A stretch of DNA of 62,381 bases, from positions 1 through 62,381 of the forward strand of contig CALMJS010000003.1 of the NCBI GenBank assembly GCA_937864535.1, given 5' to 3'. Shown piece by piece: positions 3,991 through 41,461 of the stretch. A model generated the notes under the pieces. That model was not told the DNA's origin, ran no database searches, and was given only the letters and a program-made list of their open reading frames with translations. The translations under genes and the position numbers were made by a program. Numbering within the stretch: the first letter of the stretch is position 1; each line of letters begins with the position of its first letter. Source of the DNA: an uncultured Paracoccaceae bacterium. GTDB lineage: Bacteria > Pseudomonadota > Alphaproteobacteria > Rhodobacterales > Rhodobacteraceae.

Positions 3991-6200
3991 GTCCGGCTCG
4001 CCGCGGTTTCGAGAAAGAGATGCAGCGAAATGGGGTCGATGGGCTTGTTCAGCACTTCGACCCCGATCTTGGCGCTGTTTGCCTGAACCTCGGGCGTTCG
4101 ATTGGCGGTGATCAGCCGTGTAGGAACAGGCCCGATCAGGTCGCGGATTCGGGTGATAACCTCGGTCCCCAATTCGCCGTCGTCCAACTGGAAATCGACC
4201 AGCATCGCATCGGGCGCGAGGTCGATTTCCGTGATCAGACGGACGGCTTCTTCGCCGCTGGACACATCGAGCACCTCGACATTCCATTTCTCCAGCAACA
4301 GGGTCAGGGCCCGCCGCATATCGAGGTCATTTTCGACCAAGAGCACGACCAAACCATCATGGCGCCATGTGGTATGCGCCGTTACGGTCAGTCGACCTTT
4401 GGGGAGAAGGGTGTTTTCATCAGCCAGCGGGACCGTGACCTTAAAGCAGGTGCCCTTGCCGACGGTCGATTCGACAGACAGCGGATGACGCAGCAGGGCG
4501 CAGGCCCGATCCACGATCGCCAGTCCGAGGCCCAAGCCCTCGGACGCGGAGGATCGCGCGTTGAGCCGGTGAAATTCGCGAAAGATGACCTCGTGTTCGG
4601 ATTGCGGGATGCCGGGGCCGGTATCCCACACCTCGATCCGGGCAGAGCGCCGCGTGAGACGGACACCGACCAGAACGCGCCCGGTTTGGGTATAGCGGAT
4701 CGCGTTTGAAATCAGGTTCTGCAAAATCCGCCGGATGTAGGTTGCATCGGATTTGATCCGCAAATTCGGCGCAATCACCCGCAATTCCAGTCCTTTGCGC
4801 TGGGCGAGAGGTTGGAATTCGTCCTCCAGCCGGCGCAGCAGCTTGCCTAGGTCGATCTGGTGAACGTCCACGGCGGCCCGCCCGGATTCCAGCTTGGAAA
4901 TGTCGAGCAAGGCTTCGATGATATCTTGGACCGAGGTTAGCGCGTTCTGCGCCTTATCCACCACCTCGCGGTGTCGCGCCTCGCCCAACTCTTCGGCGAT
5001 GGACGACAGATAAAGCGTCGCTGCCGACAGAGGTTGCAGCAGGTCATGCGATGCCGCGGCAACGAATCGCGACCGCGAGGCAATCGCCCGTTCAGCAACG
5101 GCCAGCGCGTCCTCTAGCTCTAGCGTGCGCTCTGTGACGCGTTGTTCGAGCAGTTCATTGGATTCGCTCAGCGTGCGTGCAGCGTCCTTTTCGGTGGTGA
5201 TATCGGTGATCGAAATCACAAAGCCCTTGTCCGGCATTTCTTCGGCAAAGAGGTCGAACCACCGGGTTTCTCCGCGCCGGAATTCAAACCGGATCGGCAT
5301 CCTGCGATCCGTTTTGCGGACCCAGCGCACCAAGCCGCCAGTCGGCGAAGGTCCCTCGATCGAAATGTCATTCTCGATGAGTTTGAGGATGATATCAAAG
5401 TCCAAGCCGATCCTGATCTGCGTCAGCGGGATCGACATCAGTTGCGCCAATCGCTGGTTAAAGCCGACCAACCGTCCATTGTGGTCGAAAATGCCGACGC
5501 CCTGATTGATGTGTTCCAACGTGGCGCGGATCAGCTTTGCCTGATCGTCCATCAGGCGCCCGCGCTCCATCCGCTCCATCCGGATGATGTCGGAAATGTC
5601 GGTTTGCATGATCACGGTCTGGCCGCCGGGCATCCGGTGTTCGGACACCTGAACCCAACGATCCCAAATCATGCGGACGTTGAACATCACGTGTTCTTCG
5701 CCGTGACGCTGCATGCGCTGGGCTGCCCACTGGGTCGAATCGGTCGAATCGGGCAGGTGCAGATAGCGGCTCTTGCTGACGATGCGGACGTAATCGTCGA
5801 ACAACAGGCCGGGCCGTAACTGGCTGCGAATATCCGGCATATGCATGCCAAACCGGCTATTGCACAGGATCAGGGTCTCATCGGCGTCAAAGAGAGCAAA
5901 TCCCTCTTGGATTGTTTCAATCGCGCTGGCGAGATCCGATCGCGCCTTTTCGGTTTCCTTGTTCGCTGTCGCGAGGCGGGCGTTGGATTCATTGAGCAAA
6001 TCCAGCGCATGTTCCAGATCCCGCGTCCGTTCGCGGACCTGTTCCTCTAGCAGAACGGCCCGCTGGAACTGGGTGTAGGCCGCGCCCCTGTCGTCGTCGA
6101 TCTGCTCTGTTCGCCGCATCAGGGCATCGCAGATCAGCATCAGTTTATCGCGCTGGCGTTCTATCGGGTCTGTAGGGTTGATCAGGGACTGGGAAATCAA
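3987..6200 (-). CDS. Hybrid sensor histidine kinase with PAS domains and receiver (ErcS'/NahK-like)
   Basis: 737 residues without membrane segments, so a cytoplasmic sensor. Order: coiled coil (~40-90), PAS (~90-205), PAS (~222-335), coiled coil, HisKA with H385 in AASHDLLQPL, HATPase with the N499 region and DTGPG at 526-530, then a receiver with phospho-acceptor D669 in LVDFQLDDGE and conserved K719. The layout matches ErcS'/NahK of Pseudomonas and FlhS-type kinases that control C1 or ethanol oxidation. The start is an unusual TTG at 6200, two bases past the FIST gene stop, with GGTGAG as ribosome site; the next ATG is 20 codons in. Third gene of the operon with the FIST protein and LuxR regulator. 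The signal is unknown; the FIST partner suggests heme or NO sensing. Confidence 0.9.
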   Translation of the reverse strand: MISQSLINPTDPIERQRDKLMLICDALMRRTEQIDDDRGAAYTQFQRAVLLEEQVRERTRDLEHALDLLNESNARLATANKETEKARSDLASAIETIQEGFALFDADETLILCNSRFGMHMPDIRSQLRPGLLFDDYVRIVSKSRYLHLPDSTDSTQWAAQRMQRHGEEHVMFNVRMIWDRWVQVSEHRMPGGQTVIMQTDISDIIRMERMERGRLMDDQAKLIRATLEHINQGVGIFDHNGRLVGFNQRLAQLMSIPLTQIRIGLDFDIILKLIENDISIEGPSPTGGLVRWVRKTDRRMPIRFEFRRGETRWFDLFAEEMPDKGFVISITDITTEKDAARTLSESNELLEQRVTERTLELEDALAVAERAIASRSRFVAAASHDLLQPLSAATLYLSSIAEELGEARHREVVDKAQNALTSVQDIIEALLDISKLESGRAAVDVHQIDLGKLLRRLEDEFQPLAQRKGLELRVIAPNLRIKSDATYIRRILQNLISNAIRYTQTGRVLVGVRLTRRSARIEVWDTGPGIPQSEHEVIFREFHRLNARSSASEGLGLGLAIVDRACALLRHPLSVESTVGKGTCFKVTVPLADENTLLPKGRLTVTAHTTWRHDGLVVLLVENDLDMRRALTLLLEKWNVEVLDVSSGEEAVRLITEIDLAPDAMLVDFQLDDGELGTEVITRIRDLIGPVPTRLITANRTPEVQANSAKIGVEVLNKPIDPISLHLFLETAASRT

Positions 6201-6202
6201 GA

Positions 6203-7375
6203 TTACTCACCATCTGGCGCAAAAATCGCCACCCCGGTCATCGTCTGGTTGACGTGCAGTCCGTTGAGCTGTTCGCCGTAGGTCGAAAAACCGACGACAC
6301 GGTTGGCCTTGAGGATGGAGGAGAGCGCGGTCACCGACTGGCTCTGTTCAGCTTCGATCCGGCGTAGCATACAGTCGCAGGCCAAAATCGCGTCGGGCGT
6401 CCTATGACGTCCGATTTGCCCCAGTTCGCGGGCGAGGTGGGCCGACATGTCCTCTGGCTGGGCCAAGGTGAGTACGACGCCTTCGTCGATTGCGGAAAAG
6501 AACACCAGATCCCCATTATCATGAACACGCTGGATGGCGCGCACATGGTGGGTCCCGCCAAGTCTGACAACGACGGGGTGTGAGGCAAAGGTAAAGGTAG
6601 ATAACTGTTCCGGGTCCTTGCCCAGAAGCCGCGCGTATTCCCGCGCCGCTGGTTCGGCATTGATTTTGCGCACGACGCGCCGTTTCGGGTCCGCATCTGT
6701 CACAACCATCCGCACATCGGTCGGTTTGAGGTGGTCTAGGCTGAACACCTTGACGTGGCAGGCGGTGCGCACAAAACACAGGACCGCCGCGTGGGTATGC
6801 ACCGTGCCGTTGAGCGACACATAGGCCTGTCCAAACCGGTCCCCGTCGCCTGCAGAGCCGCCGAACATCGGCACAGGTCCGAGCCCCGCCGAGATCGCGG
6901 CGGCAACCTCGTCTTCGCGCACGGAGAGGCCGTCAATCGCCAGAAACGCAAATTCACTGGTCCAGCCGGGACACTGCGCGGTCAGGAGCGTGCGTGTCCG
7001 GATCATCTGCCCGACGATATCCTGCTGGTCAAAAACCTCGAGGTCGGGGATCAGAATGGGTTCAACGCAGAAATGGCTGCTGGGCAGACCTATCGCGACG
7101 ATAGACCCCTCGGAATAACCGTCGCGTCCCAACTCTCCTGCGGTGGTGCAGCCGACGACCACGGCCTCGCCAAAGTAGCGATTCGCTTTGTTGACCAGAG
7201 ACGGGAAGTGCACGTCGGGGCTGGCAAACAGTGTGACGAACGCAAACGGGCCGGGGCCTAGGGCCTCGGCCAATACGGCAACGGGATCAGGACTGGTCGC
7301 CTGAACCTGCGCCGAACGCACAATGCCATCCAGATGTACCGCCGCCTCTCGCAGCGATAGTCCGCTTCCTCCCAT
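6203..7375 (-). CDS. FIST-domain sensory protein (NosP-like)
   Basis: 390 residues with FIST_N (about 35-215, including GCTTAGELGRDGYSEGSIV, read in parts) followed by FIST_C (about 220-380, including PAAREYARLLG and the C-terminal GFSTYGEQLNG). FIST proteins are cytoplasmic ligand-binding sensors. NosP, a heme protein that responds to nitric oxide, is encoded beside the NahK kinase in Pseudomonas. The same pairing occurs here: the kinase gene starts two bases after this stop. GGGAGGGGG just upstream of the ATG supports the start. Heme binding is inferred from the gene pairing only; no diagnostic ligand can be named from sequence alone. Confidence 0.88.
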   Translation of the reverse strand: MGGSGLSLREAAVHLDGIVRSAQVQATSPDPVAVLAEALGPGPFAFVTLFASPDVHFPSLVNKANRYFGEAVVVGCTTAGELGRDGYSEGSIVAIGLPSSHFCVEPILIPDLEVFDQQDIVGQMIRTRTLLTAQCPGWTSEFAFLAIDGLSVREDEVAAAISAGLGPVPMFGGSAGDGDRFGQAYVSLNGTVHTHAAVLCFVRTACHVKVFSLDHLKPTDVRMVVTDADPKRRVVRKINAEPAAREYARLLGKDPEQLSTFTFASHPVVVRLGGTHHVRAIQRVHDNGDLVFFSAIDEGVVLTLAQPEDMSAHLARELGQIGRHRTPDAILACDCMLRRIEAEQSQSVTALSSILKANRVVGFSTYGEQLNGLHVNQTMTGVAIFAPDGE

Positions 7376-7434
7376 CGCCCCCTCCCTTGGCTCTGGCGCA
7401 CCTTGCGGTCAGGTGCGGTCCAATCGTAAGGGCG

Positions 7435-8133
7435 CTAGGACATATCCTGCAAGACCGAAGCAAAGCTCGCCTCTTGGGCCATAAGAACAGCCTGAGTCCG
7501 GCTTTGGACTCCCAGCTTGCGCATGATGGCGGTGACGTGGGCCTTTACGGTGGTTTCCGCAATCGAAAGGTCATAGGCGATCTGCTTGTTCAGCTTGCCT
7601 TCGCAGATCAGTTGCAGGATTTTCGCCTGCTGCCGCGTTAGCTTGGACAGCCGGGAAATCGCCTCTTCCTGGTCGGTGACAGGGACGTTGATATCCACGT
7701 CCAGTGGCACCCCTTCGGGGACATAGCGTTCGCCCCGATTGATTTTCTCAAAGGCCATGCGGAACAGATCACGCTGGCTGTGTTTCGGAACAAAGCCCGT
7801 CGCCCCTGCGCGAATGGTTGACCCGATCATGCGGTGATCCGCCATGGACGACACGACCACGATCGGCGTCATCGCTACGGCGGTCCGCAGGCGGATCAGG
7901 CCATCCAGACCGCTTACATCCGGCAGGTCCAGATCCAGCACGATCACGTCTGGCCGCAGTCCGCTGGCAATGCGGGCCAGCGACGTTTCCAGACGGTCAG
8001 CCGTTTCGATGTCGCGGATCGCCGTTACCGCCCGGAGCGTCATGGACAACGCGTCCAGAAACAGCGGGTGATCGTCGATAATCAGGGCGGAGGTGAAAGC
8101 TGAGTACATGGTTTTGATCGGGCTTTGATACAT
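7435..8133 (-). CDS. LuxR/NarL-family response regulator (AgmR/ErbR/FlhR-like)
   Basis: 232 residues: receiver domain (residues ~14-130) with acidic pair DD20-21, phospho-acceptor D67 in VIVLDLDLP and a conserved lysine in GFVPK, then a LuxR-type helix-turn-helix (about 160-220; SKLTRQQAKILQLICEG, IAYDLSIAETTVKAHVT). It is the first gene of the operon with the FIST protein and hybrid kinase, and sits next to the PQQ dehydrogenase. This matches ErbR/AgmR and FlhR regulators of PQQ-alcohol oxidation genes. A second ATG at 8109 is possible. It is the natural candidate to bind the GGTCGTA repeats described in this locus. Confidence 0.9.
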   Translation of the reverse strand: MYQSPIKTMYSAFTSALIIDDHPLFLDALSMTLRAVTAIRDIETADRLETSLARIASGLRPDVIVLDLDLPDVSGLDGLIRLRTAVAMTPIVVVSSMADHRMIGSTIRAGATGFVPKHSQRDLFRMAFEKINRGERYVPEGVPLDVDINVPVTDQEEAISRLSKLTRQQAKILQLICEGKLNKQIAYDLSIAETTVKAHVTAIMRKLGVQSRTQAVLMAQEASFASVLQDMS

Positions 8134-8265: not shown

Positions 8266-10020
8266 TTAGTTGGCCAGTTTGAAGGTCCAGACCATGCCGC
8301 CCTGATTCAGGTAGTTGACGCGGTTGGCAACCTCGCCACCCCAGAGCGGAACAGCGCCACCCCAGCCGGATACGACCGAAACATACTGCTGCCCGTCCAT
8401 TTCCCAGGTAACGGGCTGACCGACGATGCCCGAACCGGTCTGGAACGACCACAGTTCTTCGCCGGTTTCGTCGTCCAGCGCCTTGAACTCGCCCTCGGGG
8501 GTGCCAAAGAACACCAGACCGCCAGCGGTGGTCATCACGCCGCCCCAGAGCGGTGCGTCGTTCTTGTATTCCCACTTGATCTCGCCCGAATCCGGGTCGA
8601 TGGCCTTGAGCGAGCCGATGTAGTCTTCGAACAGCGGTTTGATGGTAAAGCCCGACCCCAGATAGGCCGCGCCTTCGCGGTAGGTGACGGGTTCGTTCCA
8701 GATATCCATGCCCCATTCGTTCGACGGCACGTAGAAGTTGCCGGTGTTCTGCGAATAGGCCATCGGCATCCAGTTTTTCCCGCCAAGGAAGGACGGAACC
8801 GCGAACACCATTTCGCCCTTGTCGCCATTGGCGGCTGCGCTGGGATCGCCCGGACGGTTGTCTTCGTTATAGATCGGACGGCCGTTTTCATCGATGCCCG
8901 AAGCCCACGAAATATCGCGCACGAACGGGGTGGCCGACACGAATGCACCGTCGTCGCGGTTCAGAACGTAGAAGAACCCGTTCCGGTCAGCGGTCGCAAA
9001 GCGGTTGTTGCCTTCGCGGTCGGTGTAGGCGACGACTTCGTTCACACCGTCAAAGTCCCAGCCTTCGCGCGGGGTGGTCTGGAAGTGCCACTTGATTTCG
9101 CCGGTCGCGGGGTCGATGCCCAGACGCGATGCGGCGTAGAGGTTGTCGCCCACGTTGCCTTCGGTCGGTTGACCGGCGTTGCGCAGGTGGCTGTTCCACG
9201 GAGCCGGGTTGCCCGTCCCAAAGACCAGCGTGTTGGTGTCGATGTCATAGGACCCGCCAAGCCACGTCGCGCCGCCGCCGGTTTTCCACAAATCGCCGGG
9301 CCAAGTGGCGTTCAGCGTGCCGGTCATGGTCGATTCTTGGCCATTCAGGGTGCCCATGTGGCCTTCGATCACCGGACGGGTCCAGACGATTTCACCGGTT
9401 TCGGTGTCGCGGGCCTGAACTTCGCCAACGATCCCGAATTCGCCACCCGAGTTGCCGGTGATGATCAGGCCGTTCACGATCAGCGGCGCAGCGGTGTAGG
9501 AATAGCCAGCGCGGTAGTCGGCAATTTTCTTGTTCCAGACAACGTCGCCGGTCTTCAGGTCCAGCGCGACCAGACGTGCGTCGAGTGTGCCAAAGAAGAT
9601 CTTGTCGCCATAGATGGCTGCACCGCGGTTGATCACGTCACAGCAGGGCAGGATGCCTTCGGGCAGGCGGGCGTCGTACTGCCACAGCTCTTTGCCGGTG
9701 TGGACGTCGATCGCGTAGAGACGGGAATAGGACCCGGTCACATACATGACGCCGTCATAGACCAGCGGCTGGGTTTCCTGACCGCGCTGCTTTTCGCCGC
9801 CCATCGAAAACGCCCACGCCGGAACCAGGCGGCTGACGGTTTCCTTGTTGACCTGCTCCAGCGGGCTAAAGCGCTGAAGATTGCGGCCCATGCCGTTGGT
9901 CACGACCTGATCGGTTGAGGCCTGATCGTTTGCCAGATCCTCTTCGGTGACCTGAGCTGTTACCTGCGTTGCGGCCAGTGCCATCAGACTGACTGACGCG
10001 GCCATGATGAAACGCTTCAT
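8266..10020 (-). CDS. PQQ-dependent alcohol dehydrogenase, probable lanthanide-dependent type (PedH/ExaF-like)
   Basis: 584 residues with a signal peptide ([19 protein letters not shown], cleaved after AQ) and an eight-bladed quinoprotein propeller with repeated [10 protein letters not shown] / [10 protein letters not shown] motifs. It oxidises primary alcohols in the periplasm and passes electrons to a c-type cytochrome, probably PedF encoded nearby. The vicinal cysteine pair C126-C127 is present. The catalytic aspartate lies in WDFDGVNE: D322 is followed two residues later by D324, the extra acidic ligand found in lanthanide-dependent XoxF, PedH and ExaF but replaced by Ala or Ser in calcium enzymes. 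GGGAGGAACAG precedes the ATG at 10020; the longer frame lacks a ribosome site. Substrate (methanol versus longer alcohols) is not resolved. Confidence 0.93.
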
Positions 10021-10128
10021 CTGTTCCTCCCGTTGACGAATTTCGATGGGTTTTGTCCCGGCGCTCCTCAGCACGCTTGGACCCCTCCGCAATTATGGGC
10101 CGCTCACGGGCTCGTGAAATTGCACAAT

Positions 10129-10193
10129 GGTCGTAACTGTGGTCGTAGATGCAGGTGCAGCAAAATCGAGGGTCTAGCCTTTGGTCGTATTGG
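10129..10193. promoter_or_regulatory. Three GGTCGTA motifs in the divergent promoter region
   Basis: GGTCGTA occurs at 10129-10135, 10141-10147 and 10183-10189 between the divergent PQQ dehydrogenase and importer genes. The last copy has the wider form CTTTGGTCGTATTGG, which recurs upstream of the NosR-like gene. They are candidate binding sites for the LuxR-type regulator; the role is inferred. Confidence 0.45.
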
Positions 10194-10240
10194 CTGAAAC
10201 AATCGGAATGCTAGGCTGCGCAGCATCAAGGGAGGACACT

Positions 10241-11215
10241 ATGAAATTCATCAAGACGCTGGCGGCAGCGGCGGTTTTTGTTGCATCATCAACATGTTAT
10301 ACGCTGGCAGAGACTCCGGTCCTGCGTGCCGCCGTCCAGGAATCCGGTACGGTCAATTGGGAACTGGACACGATCACCCATTACGAATTCGACGCGGCCC
10401 ACGGGTTTGATCTGCAAGTGACCGGTCTGGCAGGGGGTGATGCGGCGCAGATTGCGTTCCTTGGTGGCGAGGCTGATGTGATCGTGTCTGACTGGCTGTG
10501 GGTTGCCCGTCAGCGTGCCGCAGGCGAAGATCTGGTGTTCATTCCCTATTCCAAGGCTGTTGGCGGTCTGTTGGTTCCCGGTGACAGCTCTGCGCAGACG
10601 CTTGCTGATCTGGCGGGGGGCAAAATCGGGATTGCGGGTGGTCCGTTGGACAAAAGCTGGCTGATTTTGCGGGCTTATGCGCAGCAGGAATATGGCATGG
10701 ATCTGGTTGCGCAGACTGAACAGGTGTTTGGTGCCCCGCCGCTGATCGCAGAAACGGCGTTGTCGGGTGAAACGCAGGGTGCGATCAATTTCTGGCATTG
10801 GGCGGCGAAAATGCAGGCGGCAGGGATGCGCGAACTGGTTTCGGTGTCGGATGCTGCGGGGGCCCTTGGGCTGGATCCGGAAACGCCGCTGCTCGGTTAT
10901 GTCGTGCACGGTTCGCTGTTGGCCGAGCATCCCGATCTGGTGGCTGGTCTCGCCGCTGCGTCTGGCGATGCCAAGGCCCTGTTGGCCAGTGATGCCGCTG
11001 CATGGGACCGGCTGCGCGAGCGGATGAACGCCAAGGACGACGCGCAGTTCGAGGCGCTCAAGGCCGGCTTTGTGGCCGGTATTCCCACCGTTACCACGGT
11101 AGACGAGGCCGCGGCGGCCCGTATGATGTCGCTGATGATCGAACTTGGCGGGGCAGAGTTGGTGGGTGACATGACCGAATTGCCGCAGGGCGTGTTCTAT
11201 CGCCCGGGTGCCTGA
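10241..11215 (+). CDS. ABC transporter substrate-binding protein (SsuA/NMT1-like)
   Basis: 324 residues from the ATG at 10241, preceded by GGGAGGA. The signal peptide is MKFIKTLAAAAVFVASSTCYTLAE. The mature protein has the type II periplasmic-binding fold of the nitrate/sulfonate/thiamine-precursor group (LAGGDAAQIAFLGGEADVIVSDWLWVARQR in pieces, then LADLAGGKIGIAGG). It is translated together with the ATPase gene that follows after no gap. A matching permease gene is found only 14 kb away at 25385. The substrate is unknown; position beside PQQ dehydrogenase suggests a role in the same physiology. Confidence 0.85.
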   Translation: MKFIKTLAAAAVFVASSTCYTLAETPVLRAAVQESGTVNWELDTITHYEFDAAHGFDLQVTGLAGGDAAQIAFLGGEADVIVSDWLWVARQRAAGEDLVFIPYSKAVGGLLVPGDSSAQTLADLAGGKIGIAGGPLDKSWLILRAYAQQEYGMDLVAQTEQVFGAPPLIAETALSGETQGAINFWHWAAKMQAAGMRELVSVSDAAGALGLDPETPLLGYVVHGSLLAEHPDLVAGLAAASGDAKALLASDAAAWDRLRERMNAKDDAQFEALKAGFVAGIPTVTTVDEAAAARMMSLMIELGGAELVGDMTELPQGVFYRPGA

Positions 11216-11857
11216 GTGGTGGCGCAGGCCAGCACCATCACGACGGGGTCCGCTTTGCCGGACCCCATTTTGCTGTCTGTTGATATTGCGGGATATTCTG
11301 TCGGGGGACAGGATATCCTCGGGTCGATCAAATTTGATCTGAGGCGAGGTGAAACCGTTGCACTGACGGGACCGTCGGGCATTGGAAAAACCACCCTGAT
11401 GCGGATTATCGCCGGGCTGGAGACCGGCCATCATGGGCGCATCGCGCGTAATGGTGTCCACGCCGTCGTGTTCCAAGAGCCGACATTGCTGCGCTGGCGG
11501 ACCTTGCGTCAGAACCTGACACTGGTTGCCAAAGTGTCGGATCCAGTAGCGCAAGATCATCTGGCCGAAGTCGGGCTAGGCAACAAGGCGGAGTTTTTTC
11601 CGGATCAGCTAAGTCTGGGGCAGCAGCGTCGGCTGGCGCTCGCGCGGGCCTTTGCGATCAAGCCGGATATTCTGTTGATGGACGAACCGTTTGTGTCGCT
11701 CGACCCTGCCTTGGCGGGGGAAATGATGGCGCTGTTTGAACGGCTGCGTGCGACCTATAATCCCGCGACCCTTCTGATCACGCATGACCGCCAAGAGGCA
11801 GAGCGCCTCGCCTCCCGCAGTTTGCGGTTGGACGGCAGGCCCGCAAGGCTGGTTTAG
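11216..11857 (+). CDS. ABC transporter ATP-binding protein (SsuB/TauB-like)
   Basis: 213 residues beginning with GTG at 11216, directly after the stop of the binding-protein gene. Walker A is GPSGIGKTT, the signature is LSLGQQRRLALARAFA, Walker B is ILLMDEPF and the switch histidine is in LLITHD. It is short for the family and has no C-terminal regulatory domain. It energises uptake with the upstream binding protein; no permease lies next to it, and the SsuC-like permease at 25385 is the likely partner. Confidence 0.88.
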   Translation: MVAQASTITTGSALPDPILLSVDIAGYSVGGQDILGSIKFDLRRGETVALTGPSGIGKTTLMRIIAGLETGHHGRIARNGVHAVVFQEPTLLRWRTLRQNLTLVAKVSDPVAQDHLAEVGLGNKAEFFPDQLSLGQQRRLALARAFAIKPDILLMDEPFVSLDPALAGEMMALFERLRATYNPATLLITHDRQEAERLASRSLRLDGRPARLV

Positions 11858-11866
11858 AATAGCATT

Positions 11867-12412
11867 TTAGAATAGTGGAGCGAATTTCCAGTTGTCCGCG
11901 TCTGGCGTGATTTCGTCTAGATCATAGTCCGCCCCAACCAGTCGCCGAGCGATGCCGACGCCCTGCTGTGCGGCGCGGTCGACAAATTGCCGGCCAGCCT
12001 GATCGTCCTGCTCGACGCCCCAGCCGCGCATCAAATCGATGCCATGATTGAACATACCAACGGGGTCGCCCGCCTCGGCGGCCCGCCGGTTCCATTCCGC
12101 TGACGCCGCAGGATCAATGCCGTCATCGCTGGCATAACCGTTGTCCTCGAGGTAGGACATCCACGCCATGGCGCGGCTGTAGCCATCCCCGGCACAGGTT
12201 TCAAAGGTACGACGCGCATCGGCATGGTCGCCCTTTTTCGTCATGTAATAGCCCGCCGCGCAGGAGGTCATCGAGGTTTCACCGCGCGCGATGTCCTCTA
12301 GGACCCGATTCAGGGTCAATTCTTCGCGGTTGAGGTCACCATATTGCGATAGATCTTCGTCCGCAAAAACCGGGGCGGCGCAGCAGATTATCGGCATAAC
12401 GAATTTCAGCAT
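11867..12412 (-). CDS. Exported Sel1/TPR-repeat protein
   Basis: 181 residues with signal peptide MLKFVMPIICCAAPVFADE and two or more Sel1-like repeats (GDHADARRTFETCAGDG; PAASAEWNRRAAEAGDPVGM; DQAGRQFVDRAAQQGVGIA). Such repeats are protein-interaction scaffolds in the periplasm. GGAGAGGACC precedes the ATG. It is the last gene on the strand after the pedA1A2BC-like genes, 71 bases from the permease, so it may belong to that operon. Precise role unknown. Confidence 0.75.
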   Translation of the reverse strand: MLKFVMPIICCAAPVFADEDLSQYGDLNREELTLNRVLEDIARGETSMTSCAAGYYMTKKGDHADARRTFETCAGDGYSRAMAWMSYLEDNGYASDDGIDPAASAEWNRRAAEAGDPVGMFNHGIDLMRGWGVEQDDQAGRQFVDRAAQQGVGIARRLVGADYDLDEITPDADNWKFAPLF

Positions 12413-12483
12413 GGTGGTCCTCTCCTCGGGCGAAATCTAGCAAATTTGACCCGCGCTGTCGTCCTGCTTGGGGTCGTAGATCG

Positions 12484-13272
12484 TCACCCCTGTTTGCGTG
12501 TCATGCCTCTGGCAGGGTCATAGCCCCAGATGGCCAGTGCCAGGAACACAGCGGTTGCCAAGACTGTCCATCCCAAGGCCGCAGGGTTCCCCGTCCGATA
12601 GAGTGAAAAGCGGATCAGTTCGACGGCCTGAGTGAACGGATTGGCGGCGCAAATGTCATGCAGAACGCGCCCGGCCTCTGCCATTTTCCACAGCGGGTAG
12701 AGCGCGGAGGACAAGAAAAACATCGGGAAAATAACGAAATTCATCACCCCGGCAAAGTTTTCCAACTGTTTGACAAAAGAGGACAAGGCCAGCCCCAGCG
12801 CCCCCAGCATCATGCCCGCGATCATCAGGGCGGGCAGCGCCGCCAGATAGCCAGTCCACGGCACTTTGATCCCATAGAGCCACGCAATCGCGAGAAACGT
12901 GTAGACCTGCAAAATGCTGATCACGGTCCCGCCGATCAGCTTGCAGATCAACAGCCACCATCGGGGCAATGGGGCGGTCAGCAGGACCTTCATCGACCCC
13001 ATTTCCCGGTCGTAGACCAATGACAGGGATGACTGCATGCCGTTGAACAGCAGGATCATCCCGCACAGGCCAGGTACGATGTAAACCTCGTAGGTGATGT
13101 AGGTTTGGTAGGGCGGTGTGATCGACAGGCCCAGCGCCGCGCGAAATCCGGCGGCAAAGACCAAGAGCCAAACCAATGGACGCACCAATGCGGCAATGAA
13201 CCGTTCCCGTTGATTGACGTATCGCAGGGCCTCTCTTTGGATGATCGCGACGAGGGAGGTCAGGTAGATCAT
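12484..13272 (-). CDS. pedC: ABC transporter permease, PQQ-alcohol-system type (PedC-like)
   Basis: 262 residues with six predicted membrane helices of the ABC-2 type (for example PLVWLLVFAAGFRAALGL, GMMLGALGLALSSFV, FVIFPMFFLSSALYP). Its ATG overlaps the stop of the ATPase gene (ATGA), so the two are co-translated. Order and type match pedC of Pseudomonas putida, where PedA1A2BC is required for growth on trace lanthanide. The direction of transport is not evident from the fold, since ABC-2 permeases are usually exporters. Confidence 0.85.
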   Translation of the reverse strand: MIYLTSLVAIIQREALRYVNQRERFIAALVRPLVWLLVFAAGFRAALGLSITPPYQTYITYEVYIVPGLCGMILLFNGMQSSLSLVYDREMGSMKVLLTAPLPRWWLLICKLIGGTVISILQVYTFLAIAWLYGIKVPWTGYLAALPALMIAGMMLGALGLALSSFVKQLENFAGVMNFVIFPMFFLSSALYPLWKMAEAGRVLHDICAANPFTQAVELIRFSLYRTGNPAALGWTVLATAVFLALAIWGYDPARGMTRKQG

Positions 13273-14039
13273 GATGACGCGCCGATCATGTCTAGAAAAA
13301 CGCCGTTCAGAGGTCGGGTTCCGGCGATTTGTCCAGCGAGGTCGTGAAGCAACACGGTCCCCCTATCGAGGATGATCAGGTCATCTGACATCCGCACTTC
13401 GTCGGTCAGATGGGTCGCCCACAGAACCGTAAGGTCGCCATTTCCGCAGAGCGAATGCACGTGGTCGGTGATCGCGGCGCGGGCAGGGGCATCCAGACCG
13501 ACGGTCGGTTCATCCAGCAGCATGACCTTGGGCTGGTGGAGCAGGGCGCGGGCAATCTCGACCCGCCTCTTATGGCCACCGTTCAAGGCCCTCGTTTTCT
13601 CGTGGGCCCGTTCGCGCATGGACATCCTGTCCAGCACATCGTCGATCCGTTTCGCCGCGGCACGGCCCGAAATACCATGCAGGGCAGCGAAATACGTCAG
13701 GTTTTGTGTCACCGTCAGGTCCAGATCCAGCGTTGTTTGCTGGAACACAACGCCCAGATCGCCCAGCGCGGAACGGGGACTGCGCCGCATATCATGCCCG
13801 TTGAGGGTGATCGTTCCGGCTTTGCTGACCAGTAGCCCGGTCAGTAGCGAAAACAGCGTTGATTTCCCGGCACCATTCGGGCCGAGCAGGGCGCAAAATC
13901 GACCCTCGGGAATGGAAAATGACACATCTTTCAGCGCGGTTTTCGCGCCAAAGTGATAGGTCAGTCCCGAAACGGTGAGGGCGGTCACCTGATCATGTTC
14001 TCCATACTGCGGCCGCCGCGTCAGAGAATTGCCTGACAC
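13269..14039 (-). CDS. pedB: ABC transporter ATP-binding protein, PQQ-alcohol-system type (PedB-like)
   Basis: 256 residues, GTG start at 14039 with CGGAAG six bases upstream. Walker A is GPNGAGKST, the signature region reads LNGGHKRRVEIARALLH (an H/K-rich variant of LSGGQ), Walker B is VMLLDEPTVGLD and the switch histidine is in LWATHL. It is the energising subunit for the overlapping permease. The altered signature (NGGHK) is shared within this ABC-2 subfamily as far as I recall. Confidence 0.87.
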   Translation of the reverse strand: MSGNSLTRRPQYGEHDQVTALTVSGLTYHFGAKTALKDVSFSIPEGRFCALLGPNGAGKSTLFSLLTGLLVSKAGTITLNGHDMRRSPRSALGDLGVVFQQTTLDLDLTVTQNLTYFAALHGISGRAAAKRIDDVLDRMSMRERAHEKTRALNGGHKRRVEIARALLHQPKVMLLDEPTVGLDAPARAAITDHVHSLCGNGDLTVLWATHLTDEVRMSDDLIILDRGTVLLHDLAGQIAGTRPLNGVFLDMIGASS

Positions 14040-14058
14040 AGCTTCCGGACCTCATGGT

Positions 14059-15018
14059 CTACTCGGTCGGTCTAAATGCGGCTGCCCAGGGGTAGCGACC
14101 GACCTTGATCGTTTTGATCGGTGTGCGGCTGGCCACATCGATCACGGTTACGTCGCCCGACACGCCGTTGGTGGTAAACAGCTGCGATTTGTCCGCGTCA
14201 AAGGCCATGTGCCAGACGCGGCGGCCGACCAGAATATAATCCTCGACCGCAAAGGTTTCGGCGTTGATCACCGCGATATGGTTCGACGGCCCCAAGGCGG
14301 CAAAGACGGTTTTCCCGTCGTCCGTAAATTCGAATCCGACCGGCTGGATCTTGTCGGCAAGGACGCCGGGAATCTCAAAGTGAATCTTGGCCAGCTCGGT
14401 TTGGTCCGAGACGTTAAAGGCCGTCACAGTGCCGCCGATTTCAGCGGAAACCCATAGCTGGCTGCCATCGGGGCTAAAGTTGGCATCGCGCGGGCGGCTG
14501 TCGACCAAGGTATTGGCAAACAGTTCGTGCGTCGTGGTGTCGATCCAATGCGCCATATTGGTGGTTTCGCTGGTCGTGATGGCGATTGTCCCGTCCGGAG
14601 AAACCGCCATCCCTTCGGGTTCGATCCCGACGTCGATCTGCGCGACAACGGTGCGCGTTTGCGTATCGACGACCGTGGCGATCGCATCGTCTTCGTTGGC
14701 GATATAGAGGTGGCGGTCGTCTGGGTGCAGGGCGAACTGTTCGGGGTCCTCGCCCGAGGGCAGTTCATGCAGAACCTCGCCAGTGACCGGATCGATGACC
14801 TGCACCGTATCGCTGTCAGAGGCACAGACATAAACCACCGAAAAATCGTGACTAAATGTGATGCCGCGTGGACGTTCGCCAACCTCGATGGTTCGAACGA
14901 CCTCGAGCGTGTCGATGTCGATCACGCTGATCGTATCGTCCTGTTCGTTCGTGACCCAGATTTCATCCGCAGCGGCGGGCAGGGCCAAAAGACTGGCAAA
15001 AAGGGCAAGGCGTAGCAT
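14059..15018 (-). CDS. pedA2: YVTN-type beta-propeller protein of PQQ-alcohol systems (PedA2-like)
   Basis: 319 residues with signal peptide MLRLALFASLLALPAAADE, then seven repeats of the form ISVIDIDTLEVVRTIEVGERPRG, AVINAETFAVEDYILVG, VTVIDVASRTPIKTIKVGRYPW (each a propeller blade). It is a periplasmic propeller with no PQQ ligand set or heme motif. Its stop is 19 bases before the ATPase start and its ATG is three bases after the pedA1-like stop, so it is part of the transporter operon. In P. putida this protein is a component of the lanthanide-related PedA1A2BC system. Confidence 0.87.
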   Translation of the reverse strand: MLRLALFASLLALPAAADEIWVTNEQDDTISVIDIDTLEVVRTIEVGERPRGITFSHDFSVVYVCASDSDTVQVIDPVTGEVLHELPSGEDPEQFALHPDDRHLYIANEDDAIATVVDTQTRTVVAQIDVGIEPEGMAVSPDGTIAITTSETTNMAHWIDTTTHELFANTLVDSRPRDANFSPDGSQLWVSAEIGGTVTAFNVSDQTELAKIHFEIPGVLADKIQPVGFEFTDDGKTVFAALGPSNHIAVINAETFAVEDYILVGRRVWHMAFDADKSQLFTTNGVSGDVTVIDVASRTPIKTIKVGRYPWAAAFRPTE

Positions 15019-15021
15019 GAC

Positions 15022-16194
15022 TTACTCCGTAAAGGCGTTGCAATGAGTTTCGGGTTCATCCAAACCCAAGGTGTCGAGGTCCGACCGCGGATGCAGAAAC
15101 CCTTCGAGGGGCGGCGTGGCGATCACGGCGTTGGCGTGCACCACCGGGATCGGCTGGCGCAACTGGCCGTTCCATGACCGGAACGACAGCGGCTGGCCCT
15201 TGAACCCGGCCAATTCGAACGAGTCGGACAGCAGATAGGACCGTAGCGTTTCCGGGTCGCTCGAAGAGGTCCGTGTCACTGCCTCGCCCAAGGCGCGGAC
15301 GGCGATAAAGGCGGCGTAGTCAATCGGGCGCATATTGCGCTGGGCGTGCTCTTCGAACCGATTTTGCAGCTGCACGCCGCCCCATTGCTCCATCACCGGG
15401 GACCACGCGACCGGGCGCGCGCCCTCTGACCCGGCGATCACATCGGGCTCCCACGTGTTATAGGGGATATAGCGGGCGAAATCGCCGACCTCATCCGCGA
15501 TCAGCATCACATCGTGACGCGGGAACTCTTGGGTAAAGAGCGGGACCTCCGCGCTCGCGGCACGGCGCATATTGGCATCGAACAGCCATTCCTTTTCAGC
15601 CTTGAGTTTGAGGCCGAATTTACGCGCCGAGGTCCGCAGAGCCTGCGCAAAGGACAGATCGGCGGGATGGGGGCCGGTGATCATGACCAGTTCATCCCAG
15701 CGCCGCGATTGCAGGAATTGCATCAGTGCATCGGCCCGCATGTCATCGCTGGGCAGGGTATGCAGTACATTTCGACGGCAATCTGCATCCCGTAGACTGA
15801 CCTCCGGGGCAGCAATGTTCAACAGAATCGCTGACGTGGCCTGCGGCAGGTCGGCCACTTGCAGCACCTGCGCGGCCGGCGCGTCGATCACGATAAATTG
15901 GGACTGGCTCAGGGCCTGTTCTGCGGCAGCGACAAAGTCCCCCTCGGGGGCGACGTTGATTATCGACAGCTCATAGGTCTGGCCCAGAAATTTTCCGGTG
16001 GTCTGATTGTCGTCGAGCCCGACCTCTGCGCCAGCAATCCCTTCATCTTCTGGAATGGCGTCCAAATTCGACAGGACCGGGGGCCGCTCGACCTCTTGGC
16101 GCAGATAGACGATCGACACCGCTGTTTGCCCAGCGGCGCTGATTGCACCAATCCCCCAAAGAGTGGCGCCCATTACGGCAGACCAAACACGCAT
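15022..16194 (-). CDS. pedA1: Periplasmic substrate-binding protein of PQQ-alcohol ABC system (PedA1-like)
   Basis: 390 residues with signal peptide ending at ISAAGQ and a type I periplasmic-binding (branched-chain amino-acid receptor-like) fold: TAVSIVYLRQEVERPP, SILL-type strands such as ATSAILLNIAAPEVSLRD, and RPVAWSPVMEQWGGVQLQ. GGGAGG precedes the ATG. It is the first gene of the operon reading to pedA2, pedB, pedC and the Sel1 protein. Family members accompany PQQ alcohol dehydrogenases; in P. putida the system supports growth at low lanthanide. Whether it binds a metal chelate, an alcohol or something else is not known from sequence. Confidence 0.86.
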   Translation of the reverse strand: MRVWSAVMGATLWGIGAISAAGQTAVSIVYLRQEVERPPVLSNLDAIPEDEGIAGAEVGLDDNQTTGKFLGQTYELSIINVAPEGDFVAAAEQALSQSQFIVIDAPAAQVLQVADLPQATSAILLNIAAPEVSLRDADCRRNVLHTLPSDDMRADALMQFLQSRRWDELVMITGPHPADLSFAQALRTSARKFGLKLKAEKEWLFDANMRRAASAEVPLFTQEFPRHDVMLIADEVGDFARYIPYNTWEPDVIAGSEGARPVAWSPVMEQWGGVQLQNRFEEHAQRNMRPIDYAAFIAVRALGEAVTRTSSSDPETLRSYLLSDSFELAGFKGQPLSFRSWNGQLRQPIPVVHANAVIATPPLEGFLHPRSDLDTLGLDEPETHCNAFTE

Positions 16195-16343: not shown

Positions 16344-17036
16344 ATGACTAAGACGCGCAAGACGTCACTTGTGACCGCTGGTTTTGTCGCGATTGCCGGG
16401 ATGGTGTACGCACACGGCGACGTGGCCCCGCAACCGATCAATACCGATGCCCTGCCCGATGTTGGCGAGGAGTGGCTGATCGAGAACCCCTATCGCGCCG
16501 AAGCTGTGGGCGAGGAGGTCTGGCTCAAGGCTGTTGAGATTGGGTCCTCTGGTTTTAACCAGAACTGCGCACGCTGTCACGGTTTGGGCGCTATTTCTGG
16601 CGGCTTGGCGCCTGATCTGCGTTTCCTCGAGGCCGAAGAATATGGCGACGACTGGTTCATGCAACGGTTCCAGCACGGCTATACCCAGAACGGGACGACC
16701 AAGATGCCGGCCTTCGGTGAAATCCTGGGTCAAAAGGCCGGTTGGGCGATCCGCACCTATATCGAAACCCGTCCCGATGACCAGATGGTCACTGATCGGG
16801 CGGCGCGGTTGACCGAGATTCGCGATGCTCTGGCCGCGATGTCGACGGGCGGCGCAGGGGACGAGGCCGCGCTTCAGTCCGACTTGCAGGCGATTGCCGA
16901 GGGGATCGAGACCCTCTCTGGTGCGCCGGTGGCCGTGTCGATCGCATGGGAGGCCGCACGTGCGCTAAACGGCGCGGCAGATGGCCAAAAGCACGCTGCC
17001 GAAATCCTGACGGTCGGTCTGTCGGCGGCGCACTGA
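16344..17036 (+). CDS. pedF: Cytochrome c-550 PedF
   Basis: 230 residues with signal peptide MTKTRKTSLVTAGFVAIAGMVYA, then HGDVAPQPINTDALP as in PedF proteins. A single c-type heme site is CARCHG (about residues 73-78), with the distal Met in TKMPAFGEILGQ. It is the periplasmic electron acceptor for PQQ alcohol dehydrogenases and passes electrons toward the terminal oxidase. AAAGGAGGAG precedes the ATG. The C-terminal 70 residues form an extra Ala-rich helical tail. The next gene starts three bases after its stop. Confidence 0.92.
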   Translation: MTKTRKTSLVTAGFVAIAGMVYAHGDVAPQPINTDALPDVGEEWLIENPYRAEAVGEEVWLKAVEIGSSGFNQNCARCHGLGAISGGLAPDLRFLEAEEYGDDWFMQRFQHGYTQNGTTKMPAFGEILGQKAGWAIRTYIETRPDDQMVTDRAARLTEIRDALAAMSTGGAGDEAALQSDLQAIAEGIETLSGAPVAVSIAWEAARALNGAADGQKHAAEILTVGLSAAH

Positions 17037-17038
17037 CG

Positions 17039-17947
17039 ATGTTCGGTCGGACCTCTCTTTCCTCGATCCTCCTCCTTGGGATTACCCTTTGGGGAGGTCC
17101 GGCGACGATGGCCTGGGCACTGTGCGACGACTATGTGCCCGGGCCAAAACCCCAAAACGCTGACCGTGATATCGTCGGTGCCGAATTCGACACTATCCTT
17201 GAACGCGGTTGGATCGAATTTGCGGTTTATGAACAGTTTGCGCCCTACAGTTGGCTCGAAGAGGGTCAACCTAAGGGTGTGGATATCGAAATCGGTCGGA
17301 TGATCGCCGCCTCACTGGGTGTCGAGGCGCGGTTCAAGTTCGTGCAATCGGCGGAAACGCTGGAGGGCGATCTGATGAACTGGGTCTGGAAGGGCCCGGT
17401 TGTCGGCGGATCAGTCGCGAATGTCATGCTGCACGTGCCCTATGATCCCAATTTTGCTTGCCGCGTCGAACAGGTGGTCTTTACCGGGCAGGCCTACAAA
17501 GAGGGCGTCGCCATCGCCTATGATCAGGCGTTTTACGAGGATGAAGCGCCTACGCCGCCGTTTTTCCGGTTTGACCCTGTCGGGGTCGAAAATGACACGA
17601 TTGCGGACTTCTACCTGTCGAATCTGCTCGGCGTCGGCGCGGCAGCAAATATCCACCGCTATACCGACATCAGCCAGGCGGTTCAGGCCATCGACACCCA
17701 AGAGGTCCGCGCCGCGATGGGTCCGCGGGGGCAACTGGAATATTGGGCAGGCGGCGGAACCGTCGTTCATCAACCGCCACTGGTAAATTTCGCCGTCGGC
17801 GATTGGACCGTTGGCGTAGCGGTACACATGGCCTATCGTCCACTCGCATACGCCGTAGATGATGCAATCTATGCGGGACTGGAGGACGGGACCATTGCGC
17901 AAATTTTCAATGACTACGGGCTGACCTTCGTTCCACCGGAACGATAA
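17039..17947 (+). CDS. Quinoprotein-dehydrogenase-associated periplasmic binding protein (MoxJ/XoxJ-like)
   Basis: 302 residues from ATG 17039. A signal peptide (MFGRTSLSSILLLGITLWG...AWA) is followed by a type II solute-binding domain: ILERGWIEFAVYEQFAPYSW, GVDIEIGRMIAASLGVEARF in pieces, and a C-terminal IYAGLEDGTIAQIFNDYGL. MxaJ/XoxJ proteins are encoded with PQQ dehydrogenases and cytochromes; XoxJ is thought to help assemble or activate the dehydrogenase. It forms a two-gene unit with pedF, three bases apart. Confidence 0.87.
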   Translation: MFGRTSLSSILLLGITLWGGPATMAWALCDDYVPGPKPQNADRDIVGAEFDTILERGWIEFAVYEQFAPYSWLEEGQPKGVDIEIGRMIAASLGVEARFKFVQSAETLEGDLMNWVWKGPVVGGSVANVMLHVPYDPNFACRVEQVVFTGQAYKEGVAIAYDQAFYEDEAPTPPFFRFDPVGVENDTIADFYLSNLLGVGAAANIHRYTDISQAVQAIDTQEVRAAMGPRGQLEYWAGGGTVVHQPPLVNFAVGDWTVGVAVHMAYRPLAYAVDDAIYAGLEDGTIAQIFNDYGLTFVPPER

Positions 17948-18019: not shown

Positions 18020-18529
18020 GTGGAACTTTCCGATTCCCGCGTCATCAAAGCCAGCCCGGACGCCGTTTGGGCGGCCATTCTGGACCCCGAAGTTCTCAAG
18101 GCCTGTATTCCGGGCTGTCAGGAGATGGCCGGGTCTGTCGAACAAGGCTTCGAGGCGACAGTTGTTCAGAAAATTGGGCCGGTAAAGGCCACCTTCAAGG
18201 GTGCGGTTCAGCTGATGGACATCGTGCCGGGTCAAAGCTGCACCATCAGCGGTGAAGGTAAAGGCGGGCCCGCTGGCTTTGCCAAGGGCGACGCCAAGAT
18301 CAAATTGACCCCCCAAGAGGGCGGCACCCTGCTGGAATACGCTGTCGAAGCGAAAATTGGCGGTAAGATTGCCCAACTGGGCAGCCGAATCATCGACGGT
18401 GTAGCCCGCAAACTGGCCGACGAATTTTTCGCCAAGTTCCAGAGTGTTGTTGAAGGCCCTGCCGAGGAAACATCCGACGAAGGCGGCGAAGCGACTGAGA
18501 AAAAAGGTTGGCTCAAGCGCATCTTCTAA
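18020..18529 (+). CDS. coxG: CoxG-like SRPBCC protein (molybdenum hydroxylase accessory)
   Basis: 169 residues of the CoxG family: MELSDSRVIKASPDAVWAAI, DPEVLKACIPGC, then GEGKGGPAGFAKGDAKI and a C-terminal acidic/lysine tail ending KKGWLKRIF. The start codon is GTG at 18020 with GGAGG-type site upstream. CoxG of carboxydotrophs is proposed to anchor CO dehydrogenase at the membrane. Here it leads the coxSLM set, 31 bases before coxS, in one operon. Confidence 0.87.
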   Translation: MELSDSRVIKASPDAVWAAILDPEVLKACIPGCQEMAGSVEQGFEATVVQKIGPVKATFKGAVQLMDIVPGQSCTISGEGKGGPAGFAKGDAKIKLTPQEGGTLLEYAVEAKIGGKIAQLGSRIIDGVARKLADEFFAKFQSVVEGPAEETSDEGGEATEKKGWLKRIF

Positions 18530-18560
18530 GCGCTAGCCAGTGTATTACAGGGAGGAAACC

Positions 18561-19046
<486 letters not shown>

Positions 19047-19076
19047 GCCGGACATAATAATCTCAGGGAGGAAGAG

Positions 19077-21440
19077 ATGCCCAAGGATCACGGTATTGGC
19101 GCCAGCCAAAAACGGCGCGAAGACGTAAGGTTCCTGACCGGCCGCGGCCAGTATACCGACGACATCAACCTGCACGGCCAGACCTACGTTTATTTCCTGC
19201 GGTCGGACGTTGCGCACGGTAAAATCAACTCGATCGACACCTCTGCCGCCGAGGCAATGGAAGGCGTCGTTCGCATTTTCACCGGTGCAGATTTCGAAGG
19301 CATCGGCGGTCTGCCCTGCGGTTGGCAGGTAACGGACCGTTTCGGCCAGCCGATGCAGGAACCCGGCCACCCCGTTCTGGCGCGTGGCAAGGTGCGTCAC
19401 GTCGGTGACCCGATTGCCGCCATCGTCGCCGAAACCAAGGAACAGGCCCGCGACGCTGCCGAGGCCATCGTTCTGGACATCGAGGAACTGCCGGCTGTCG
19501 TCGACATGAAGGCCGCATTGGCCGAAGGTGCCGCCAAGGTGCATGACGAACTGTCATCGAACCTGTGCTACGACTGGGGCTTTGTCGAAGACAACAAGGC
19601 CGCCGTCGATGAGGCGATCAAGAACGCCGCCCACGTCACGACGCTGGAACTGGTAAACAACCGCCTGATCGCGAACCCGATGGAACCGCGCGTGGCTGTT
19701 GGCGATTACAACTTTGCCAACGATGAATCGACCCTCTACACCACCTCGCAAAACCCGCACGTGATCCGTCTGCTGATGGGCGCGTTCGTTCTGGGCATTC
19801 CGGAACACAAACTGCGCGTCGTGGCCCCCGACGTTGGCGGCGGTTTCGGCACCAAGATTTTCCACTACGCCGAAGAAGCATTTGTCACCTTTGCCGCGCG
19901 CCAGATCAAGCGTCCGGTCAAGTGGACCTCGACCCGCTCCGAAGCCTTTATGTCGGACGCTCATGGCCGCGATCACGTGACCAAGATCGAACTGGCGCTG
20001 GATGCGGACAACAACTTCACCGCGCTGCGCTGCGAAACCTATGCAAACATGGGCGCCTACCTGTCCACCTTTGCGCCGTCGGTTCCGACATGGCTGCACG
20101 GCACGCTGTTGGCAGGCAACTACCGCACGCCGCTGATCTATACCAACGTTAAGGCCGTGTTCACCAACACCGTGCCGGTTGACGCCTATCGCGGCGCTGG
20201 CCGTCCCGAGGCGACCTTCCAGATCGAACGTGTGGTGGATAAGGCTGCCCGTGAACTGGGCGTTGACCCGATCCAACTGCGCCGTCAGAACTTTATCACC
20301 CAATTCCCCTATTCGACCCCGGTTGCCGTACAGTACGACACCGGCGATTATGTTGCGACGATGGACAAGCTGGAAGAGATCATGGATATGTCCGGTTTCG
20401 CCGCCCGCCGCAAAGAGTCCGAGGCCAAGGGTAAATGGCGTGGTCTGGGTGTGAACTGCTACATCGAGGCGTGCGGTATTGCGCCGTCGAACCTCGTCGG
20501 TCAACTCGGCGCGCGTGCCGGTCTCTATGACGCCGCCACCGTCCGCGTGAACGCCACCGGATCGATCAGCGTCATGGTCGGGGCGCATAGCCACGGTCAG
20601 GGCCACGAAACGACCTTCCCGCAGGTGATCGCCGAGATGATCGGGATCGACGAAAGCCAGATCGACATCGTCCACGGCGATTCGTCCAAGATCCCGTTCG
20701 GGATGGGCACCTACGGGTCGCGTTCGCTGGCGGTGTGTGGTTCCGCCATGGTTCGCGCCACCGAAAAGGTGATCCGCAAGGCCAAGAAGATCGCCGCCCA
20801 CCTGCTTGAAGCGTCCGAGGCCGATATCGAACTGAAGAACGGCAAGTTCTCGGTTGCGGGCACGGATAAATCGGTGGATTGGGCTGGTGTGACGCTGGCC
20901 GCCTATGTGCCGCACAACTACCCGCTCGAGGATATCGAACCGGGTCTCGAGGAAACCGCCTTCTACGATCCGTCGAACTTTACCTACCCGTCGGGCGCCT
21001 ATGCCTGCGAAGTCGAAGTCGATCCGGAAACCGGCAAGGTTCAGATTCTCAAGTTTGCGGCTGCCGATGACTTTGGCAACGTGGTGAACCCGATGATCGT
21101 CGAAGGTCAGGTTCATGGCGGGATCGCACAGGGTATTGGTCAGGCCATGCTCGAAGCGGCGATCTACGATGAAAACGGTCAGCTGCAATCGGCGTCCTAT
21201 ATGGACTACGCGATGCCGCGTGCGGATGACGTACCGTTCTACATCGTCGATCATTCCTGCGCGACGCCCTGCACCCATAACCCGCTCGGGGTTAAGGGCT
21301 GCGGCGAGGCTGGTGCCATCGGTTCCCCGCCTGCTGTTGTGAACGCTGTCATCGACGCGCTTGCCTCTGGTGGCAAGAACGTTGGCCACATCAACATGCC
21401 CCTGACGCCCCACCGCGTCTGGAAGGCCATCAACAGCTAA
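19077..21440 (+). CDS. coxL: Molybdenum hydroxylase large subunit, form II CoxL-like
   Basis: 787 residues of the xanthine-oxidase family, carrying the molybdopterin-cytosine-dinucleotide cofactor. N-terminal [30 protein letters not shown], in pieces, is typical. The active-site loop reads AYRGAGR (residues 370-376), which marks form II proteins, not the AYxCSFR of true form I CO dehydrogenases that bears the copper-binding cysteine. The C-terminal [20 protein letters not shown] contains the catalytic glutamate. GGGAGGAAGAG precedes the ATG. CO oxidation is therefore doubtful; an aldehyde or other small carbonyl is a reasonable alternative, given the adjoining alcohol dehydrogenase. Confidence 0.93.
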
Positions 21441-21491
21441 AGGACGGCGTCCCCGGTCAGCCGGGGACAGCCCCCCACAGAGGAGGAAAAC

Positions 21492-41361: not shown

Positions 41362-41461
41362 GGGCGCCTCCTGTTGCTGCGCGTTTAACGCGGGTTTGGG
41401 CGCAGTCCAAGGAGTTTTGCCGTAATTCCCTTGCGCGTGGCAAGGAGGACGCTATGTTCCG

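Follow-up and report, generated by a model that had tools for sequence, protein, structure and literature searches.

The DNA analyzed here, called the window in the following, is a stretch of 62,381 nucleotides from an uncultured, marine-type Paracoccaceae bacterium (contig CALMJS010000003.1 of assembly GCA_937864535.1). It carries the gene of a PedH-type alcohol dehydrogenase (ADH) predicted to use pyrroloquinoline quinone (PQQ), an operon of the PedA1A2BC type and the genes of a second ATP-binding cassette (ABC) system whose periplasmic binding protein is related to PqqT. We consider it likely that a known lanthanide-dependent ADH system operates here in a lineage which obtains its PQQ externally by PqqT-type capture.

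The PedH-type dehydrogenase and its PedA1A2BC operon

The open reading frame of the dehydrogenase extends over positions 8266-10092 of the minus strand. Translation probably begins with the ATG at 10020, ahead of which this strand carries GGGAGGAACAG, and the protein encoded at 8266-10020 comprises 584 amino acids. Protein identities were scored against the curated NCBIfam cut-offs. With TIGR03075 the dehydrogenase reaches 767.8 bits (cut-off 480), and its top matches in the PDB are the PedH entries 6zcv and 6zcw with 824 and 822 bits, compared with 686 bits for the calcium enzyme ExaA (1flg) and at most 326 bits for XoxF-type entries. The original prediction had placed D322 and D324 in the motif WDFDGVNE and had taken the second aspartate as the mark of a lanthanide enzyme. 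Both residues are found at these positions, and an alignment to PedH puts D324 at the metal site: the columns of E194, N271, D322 and D324 match, and the adjacent Cys pair, which stands in PCCD, is conserved as well. ExaA reads WDFSGNNE at this place and has Ser at the +2 position. With PedH as the nearest solved relative and Asp instead of Ser at +2, the sequence supports the assignment to the lanthanide-type homologues of PedH, here accompanied by a PedA1A2BC operon, and the metal used would be a lanthanide. PedH of Pseudomonas putida KT2440, the best PDB match, shares the D-x-D motif and is a lanthanide-dependent PQQ ethanol dehydrogenase.

Loci were compared in 60 fetched regions of the same family and at 80 named loci, two sets with at least six records in common. 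Of the PedH-type ADHs, all 29 from the window and the same-family set carry Asp at +2, as do 62 of the 63 from the named loci, where the last one is cut or unmatched. Every dehydrogenase sharing one of the 60 regions with PedA1 has this Asp, and the Ca-type enzymes at L068, L117, L119 and L120 have no PedA1 in their own fetched region. A strict rule connecting the motif with PedA1 is contradicted by L121 (genome G043), where Asp at +2 occurs in a region without PedA1, and membrane glucose dehydrogenase shows D-x-D as well. The ADH of G101 is interrupted by an internal stop. At L101, L118, L122 and L123 we observed odd PQQ-dehydrogenases in regions with PedA1, in which D-x-D stands in altered surroundings, FDYDATNE or YMDYDEVG/YLDYDEVG, the latter type lacking the Cys pair.

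The genome to which the window belongs (G000; 99.97% complete, 35 contigs, 4.89% contamination) has a single TIGR03075 match over the cut-off; the other three are weak and overlapping and fall at a single place on C32. No Ca-type counterpart over this cut-off was found in G000, and a rare earth element switch between two enzymes, as with the PedE/PedH pair, is therefore not expected. In this respect the genome differs from P. putida, as it does in having no pqqC or pqqE (see below). Between the window and the same-genus genome G108 (99% complete, 0% contamination) PedH shows a nonsynonymous divergence (dN) of 0.048 and a synonymous divergence (dS) of 0.840, values that argue against a relic gene. 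By eye the enzyme has a signal peptide of the Sec type, and thus cofactor loading before export is not suggested.

An operon matching pedA1-pedA2-pedB-pedC had been predicted at a distance of 2.5 kb. We find all four proteins over their cut-offs on the minus strand in the order A1-A2-B-C, and the end of PedC lies 2.46 kb from the start of PedH. The operon consists of a PedA1/LutA-type periplasmic binding protein (15022-16194; TIGR03863, 475 bits, cut-off 414), a PedA2/LutB-type YVTN beta-propeller (14059-15018; TIGR03866, 506 bits, cut-off 287), a PedB/LutE-type ABC ATPase (13269-14039; TIGR03864, 333 bits, cut-off 302) and a PedC/LutF-type ABC-2 permease (12484-13272; TIGR03861, 436 bits, cut-off 241). 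The same four proteins in the same order are known as PedA1A2BC from P. putida and as LutABEF from Methylorubrum extorquens; the window is different in that the genes of another ABC system, of the PqqT type, are interspersed. The cytochrome c-550 PedF, the likely electron acceptor, had also been named correctly and is encoded on the plus strand at 16344-17036 (TIGR04494, 188 bits, cut-off 122). As a side observation, PedA2 also matches the YncE model below cut-off, and in E. coli (L222, 1964-5369) the PQQ receptor gene pqqU adjoins yncE, likewise a beta-propeller gene.

Of 150 genomes drawn evenly from the family, each at least 90% complete, 43 have PedA1 over the cut-off and 44 have a PQQ-ADH, and all 43 are among the 44. 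In the 44th genome (G076) the full-length enzyme, the one read there beside two partial matches, has WDYAGVN (MxaF type). Wehrmann et al. 2019 (PMC6839425) state that the transporter is carried by all reported producers of lanthanide-dependent ADHs. The link between the PedA1 transporter and these enzymes is therefore already known.

Missing PQQ synthesis genes and the PqqT-like system

A search for pqqC gave no match at E ≤ 0.001 in the own genome, and no pqqE over the cut-off was present; pqqB and pqqD were not searched genome-wide. We judge the pqqC search to be working because 31 of the 150 family genomes matched, 30 of them over the cut-off. Among the 43 family genomes defined by PedA1 over the cut-off, 28 have a pqqC match (in G101 below the cut-off and split) and 15 have none, namely G000, G108, G002, G006, G015, G037, G048, G089, G090, G095, G102, G109, G113, G120 and G137. 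None of these 15, including the same-genus G108, has pqqE over the cut-off, as opposed to six of seven comparison genomes (the exception being G146). Each of the 15 has nevertheless kept a PQQ-ADH with D-x-D and without internal stop. In a second survey of 289 class-level genomes PedA1 was called at E ≤ 1e-60 (n = 40, of which 31 over the cut-off); pqqC was missing in nine of the 40, and four of these nine are 93-96% complete. When the presence of pqq is mapped onto a gene tree of PedH with 29 rows (13 pqq-minus and 16 pqq-plus), seven changes are needed (five to eight over the bootstrap trees), and the starred branches force three; on this gene tree gain and loss of pqq are not told apart. 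As neither pqqC nor pqqE is found in the genome, PQQ would have to come from outside, and we infer that the organism needs it.

Divergently from pedH, the plus strand encodes an NMT1-like periplasmic binding protein (10241-11215) which shares 40% identity with PqqT of M. extorquens AM1 over 291 residues. An alignment of 18 relatives has 62 invariant columns, of which the two proteins share 46, compared with 71 of the 229 other columns. At E ≤ 0.001 the only sequence matches in the PDB are 9b1u/9b1v and 9ooz, all titled PqqT. A structural model of the protein (predicted local distance difference test, pLDDT, 92) places the same entries at ranks 1-3 in Foldseek, with a best E value of 1.5e-32 for 9b1u (with PQQ), 9ooz being the Y161W variant and 9b1v containing PQQ and Gd3+; the next other entry follows at 1.8e-15. 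The protein is thus a relative of PqqT above other NMT1-like proteins, judging from sequence and model, and PQQ would be its ligand. PqqT binds PQQ with a dissociation constant of 50 nM (PMC12124388).

The Lys of a GGxxDKxW motif is present in 24 of 25 and in 76 of 80 relatives, the others being cut or unmatched. In the window protein this motif residue is K138, which aligns with Lys 115 of the PqqT chain in the PDB. Residue K142 of PqqT is in contact with PQQ. K138 would correspond to it only if the numbering is offset by 27, which is opposed by Y161 of 9ooz, fitting the chain numbering without offset, and by chain residue 142, which is not Lys.

The binding-protein gene is directly followed by an ABC ATPase gene (11216-11857, plus strand), the probable partner of the PqqT-like protein. 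No permease adjoins this ATPase; a candidate is found 14 kb off on the same strand (25385-26173). In nine of the 60 same-family regions (L067, L073, L082, L088, L089, L097, L100, L102 and L123) binding protein, permease and ATPase stand together, and the detached permease is 49-56% identical to the permeases of eight of these modules; its identity to E. coli TauC and SsuC is 26% and 32%. L081, L092, L094, L095, L108, L125, L135 and L190 likewise have their permease detached and close to a NosR-like gene. The kinship of the detached permease to those of the intact modules suggests that the window probably holds a PqqT-type importer which is whole but split.

Where a locus has both, PedH and the PqqT-like protein are encoded divergently and no more than 3 kb apart at 15 of 17 same-family and at 62 of 63 named loci; the window differs in this neighbor from P. 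putida. A further difference concerns PqqT itself, in that M. extorquens has pqq genes (PMC7391723), while the relative is found here in genomes without pqqC and pqqE. The original prediction of a compact metal-uptake-plus-oxidation module is supported as far as it goes; it was incomplete, having overlooked the absence of the pqq genes and the PqqT-type system at 10241-11857.

Neighboring genes

Between the two ABC systems lies a minus-strand gene for a Sel1-like protein (11867-12412) with a weak Sel1 match below cut-off and relatives at many of the compared loci. Downstream of PedF the plus strand encodes a family-3 solute-binding protein (17033-17947; PF00497, E 7e-9), which had been called XoxJ-like. 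A MoxJ/XoxJ model and a XoxJ structure exist; no MoxJ/XoxJ model matched at E ≤ 0.01, and among the five PDB entries matching at E ≤ 0.1 none bears the name XoxJ. We have therefore dropped this label. The plus strand continues with a CoxG-S-L-M-like molybdo-flavo-iron-sulfur dehydrogenase (18020-22280), possibly an aldehyde dehydrogenase, identified from COXG and flavin adenine dinucleotide (FAD)-binding matches; the best NCBIfam matches of its S, L and M proteins are subunits of glyceraldehyde dehydrogenase, all below cut-off.

On the other side of pedH the minus strand (3987-8133) encodes three regulators, a NahK/ErcS'-like hybrid kinase, a NosP-like FIST protein and an ErdR-like response regulator, named after their best NCBIfam matches, which are all below their own cut-offs. 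The P. putida cluster likewise has regulators of the NosP and NahK types together with PedA1A2BC (PMC12997753). The NosP-, NahK- and ErdR-like regulators beside the ADH hint at a control by nitric oxide. We also noted a flavin transferase resembling ApbE and, with it, a membrane iron-sulfur protein resembling NosR (22332-25273), the latter with 432 bits against the NosR cut-off of 1000. This pair recurs near PedF at many PedH loci and possibly provides a membrane electron-transfer partner. Farther away, at 41460-44100, a thiamine pyrophosphate (TPP) riboswitch precedes thiamine transporter genes of the ThiB- and ThiP-like types.

Proposed source of PQQ and alternative explanations

The mechanism that we propose builds on the observed gene identities and active-site residues, on the missing pqqC and pqqE, on the relationship to PqqT and on co-occurrence, and it adds a presumed metal, PQQ need, ligands and direction of transport. 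PedH, carrying PQQ and the lanthanide that its D-x-D site implies, would oxidize alcohol in the periplasm. Electrons would probably pass to PedF, and the aldehyde may then be taken over by the neighboring Cox-like dehydrogenase. The lanthanide would be handled by the PedA1A2BC transport system, as is reported for the relatives in P. putida and M. extorquens. External PQQ would be held in the periplasm by the PqqT-like protein, which probably works with its ATPase and the permease 14 kb off.

The PqqT-like profile matched in 39 of the 150 family genomes. Among the PedA1 genomes of the family it is present in all 15 without pqqC and in 18 of the 28 with pqqC (Fisher p 0.008; the match in the pqqC-plus G004 is weaker), and the further carriers are G019, G042, G045, G076, G087 and G146. 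At class level 36 of the 289 genomes carry the protein, 35 of them with PedA1 and one (G173) without. Pooling both surveys gives 23 of 23 pqqC-minus and 44 of 59 pqqC-plus genomes (p 0.008). The distribution of the importer is tied more closely to the lanthanide enzyme than to missing PQQ synthesis. A reading of this system as nothing but a marker of PQQ auxotrophy was favored by the family survey and weakened by the class survey, where it tracks PedA1 rather than missing pqqC.

How PQQ would cross the outer membrane was approached with E. coli PqqU as query. In the 15 pqqC-minus genomes there was no match in 13 and short weak matches in G002 and G037; in 15 pqqC-plus genomes weak matches occurred in seven. 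The situation resembles PqqU-dependent scavenging in E. coli in that a PQQ enzyme is present without PQQ synthesis genes, and differs from it in the lack of a PqqU-like match in these 13 genomes. Munder et al. 2025 reported a single alphaproteobacterium with PqqU and concluded that the class consists mainly of PQQ producers; the PqqU result here agrees with their finding. Our data argue for a part of the class scavenging PQQ by a route other than PqqU. By analogy PQQ may possibly enter by diffusion followed by periplasmic capture, as described for PqqT (PMC12124388, PMC12828617).

Several points weigh against an external supply of PQQ through PqqT-type capture. E. coli PqqU gave no match at E ≤ 0.001 in the own genome, other outer-membrane receptors not having been searched, and in the pqqC-minus G095 a stop lies inside the PqqT-like match. 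The class-level link to the absence of pqqC is not significant (nine of nine versus 26 of 31, p 0.57), and with the three independent pairs on the starred branches the sign test gives p 1, kinship not being removed from the counts above. Only one of 52 class genomes with a PQQ dehydrogenase and without PedA1 carries the PqqT-like protein (G173). As the protein tracks PedA1, plain PQQ salvage alone does not explain its distribution. In addition, ABC-2 type permeases, to which PedC belongs, are common in exporters, and the enzyme is periplasmic, which gives no evident reason for moving either cofactor into the cytoplasm.

The alternative that survives best, which we regard as rather unlikely, is that the cargo of the PqqT-like importer is a chelated lanthanide or a PQQ-lanthanide complex and not free PQQ. 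The coincidence of 35 of the 36 class-level carriers with PedA1, the frequent position of the PqqT-type module beside PedC-PedB and the existence of a PqqT structure with PQQ and Gd3+ (9b1v) are in its favor. It is opposed by the nearest solved relative, PqqT, which binds PQQ, and by L210 (G049), where the PqqT-type module abuts pqqBCDE. At L204 (6739-12791, G087) we observed an intact PqqT-type importer in a row after two PQQ-type sugar dehydrogenases, by eye a membrane glucose dehydrogenase-like and a sorbosone dehydrogenase-like protein, in a genome that has neither a pqqC nor a PedA1 match. This would also speak for free PQQ; the argument is weak because membrane glucose dehydrogenase is predicted to be facultatively lanthanide-dependent (PMC11996626). 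An extended form, which we find doubtful, is a guild of marine Alphaproteobacteria whose lanthanide-dependent oxidation of alcohols relies on two scavenged cofactors, and in which the PqqT-type ABC system imports a single PQQ-lanthanide complex. Uptake of such a complex would explain why 35 of 36 carriers have PedA1 and only one of 52 other PQQ-enzyme genomes has the protein.

That PedA1A2BC is not a lanthanide importer and instead exports or handles something else needed by the lanthanide enzyme appears quite unlikely to us. PedC matches ABC2_membrane (PF01061), and PedB and PedC also match the efflux models DrrA and DrrB below cut-off. Lanthanide transport is, however, reported for the PedA1A2BC and LutABEF relatives: loss of PedA1A2BC in P. 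putida raises the need for lanthanum (La) about 100-fold and leaves PedE-dependent growth unaffected (PMC6839425), and lutA, lutE and lutF mutants of M. extorquens show periplasmic La deposits (PMC7391723). We also considered that the main role of PedABC is the export of home-made PQQ. This was rejected because of the presence of PedA1 in all 15 pqqC-minus genomes (from the PedA1-defined set) and because of the PedABC-independent PedE growth of P. putida.

It is very unlikely that PQQ is made after all, by overlooked pqq genes or an unrecognized route. The searches did not extend to pqqB and pqqD, and the assembly is fragmented into 35 contigs with 4.89% contamination; yet 15 PedA1 genomes, among them G108 with its 0% contamination, are without a pqqC match and without pqqE over the cut-off, and we know of no other PQQ pathway. 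Use of Ca2+ by the ADH despite D324 is highly improbable, since the closest solved enzyme is PedH and not ExaA, the metal-site columns match and the PedA1A2BC operon accompanies the gene, even though membrane glucose dehydrogenase has a D-x-D motif and reportedly functions with Ca, Mg, Zn or Sr (PMC11996626) and the G043 enzyme (L121) has Asp at +2 in a region without PedA1.

Coming back to the external supply of PQQ by PqqT-type capture, the enzyme, the PedABC transporter and PqqT are all of known kinds. What we did not find in the open-licence literature is that 15 of 43 related lineages probably depend on PQQ, or that a PqqT-type importer stands in split form next to PedH. Should growth tests agree, PQQ would be a shared vitamin for a part of the alcohol oxidizers, in addition to their need for trace lanthanide, and PqqU-independent uptake of PQQ would become testable in cultured strains.

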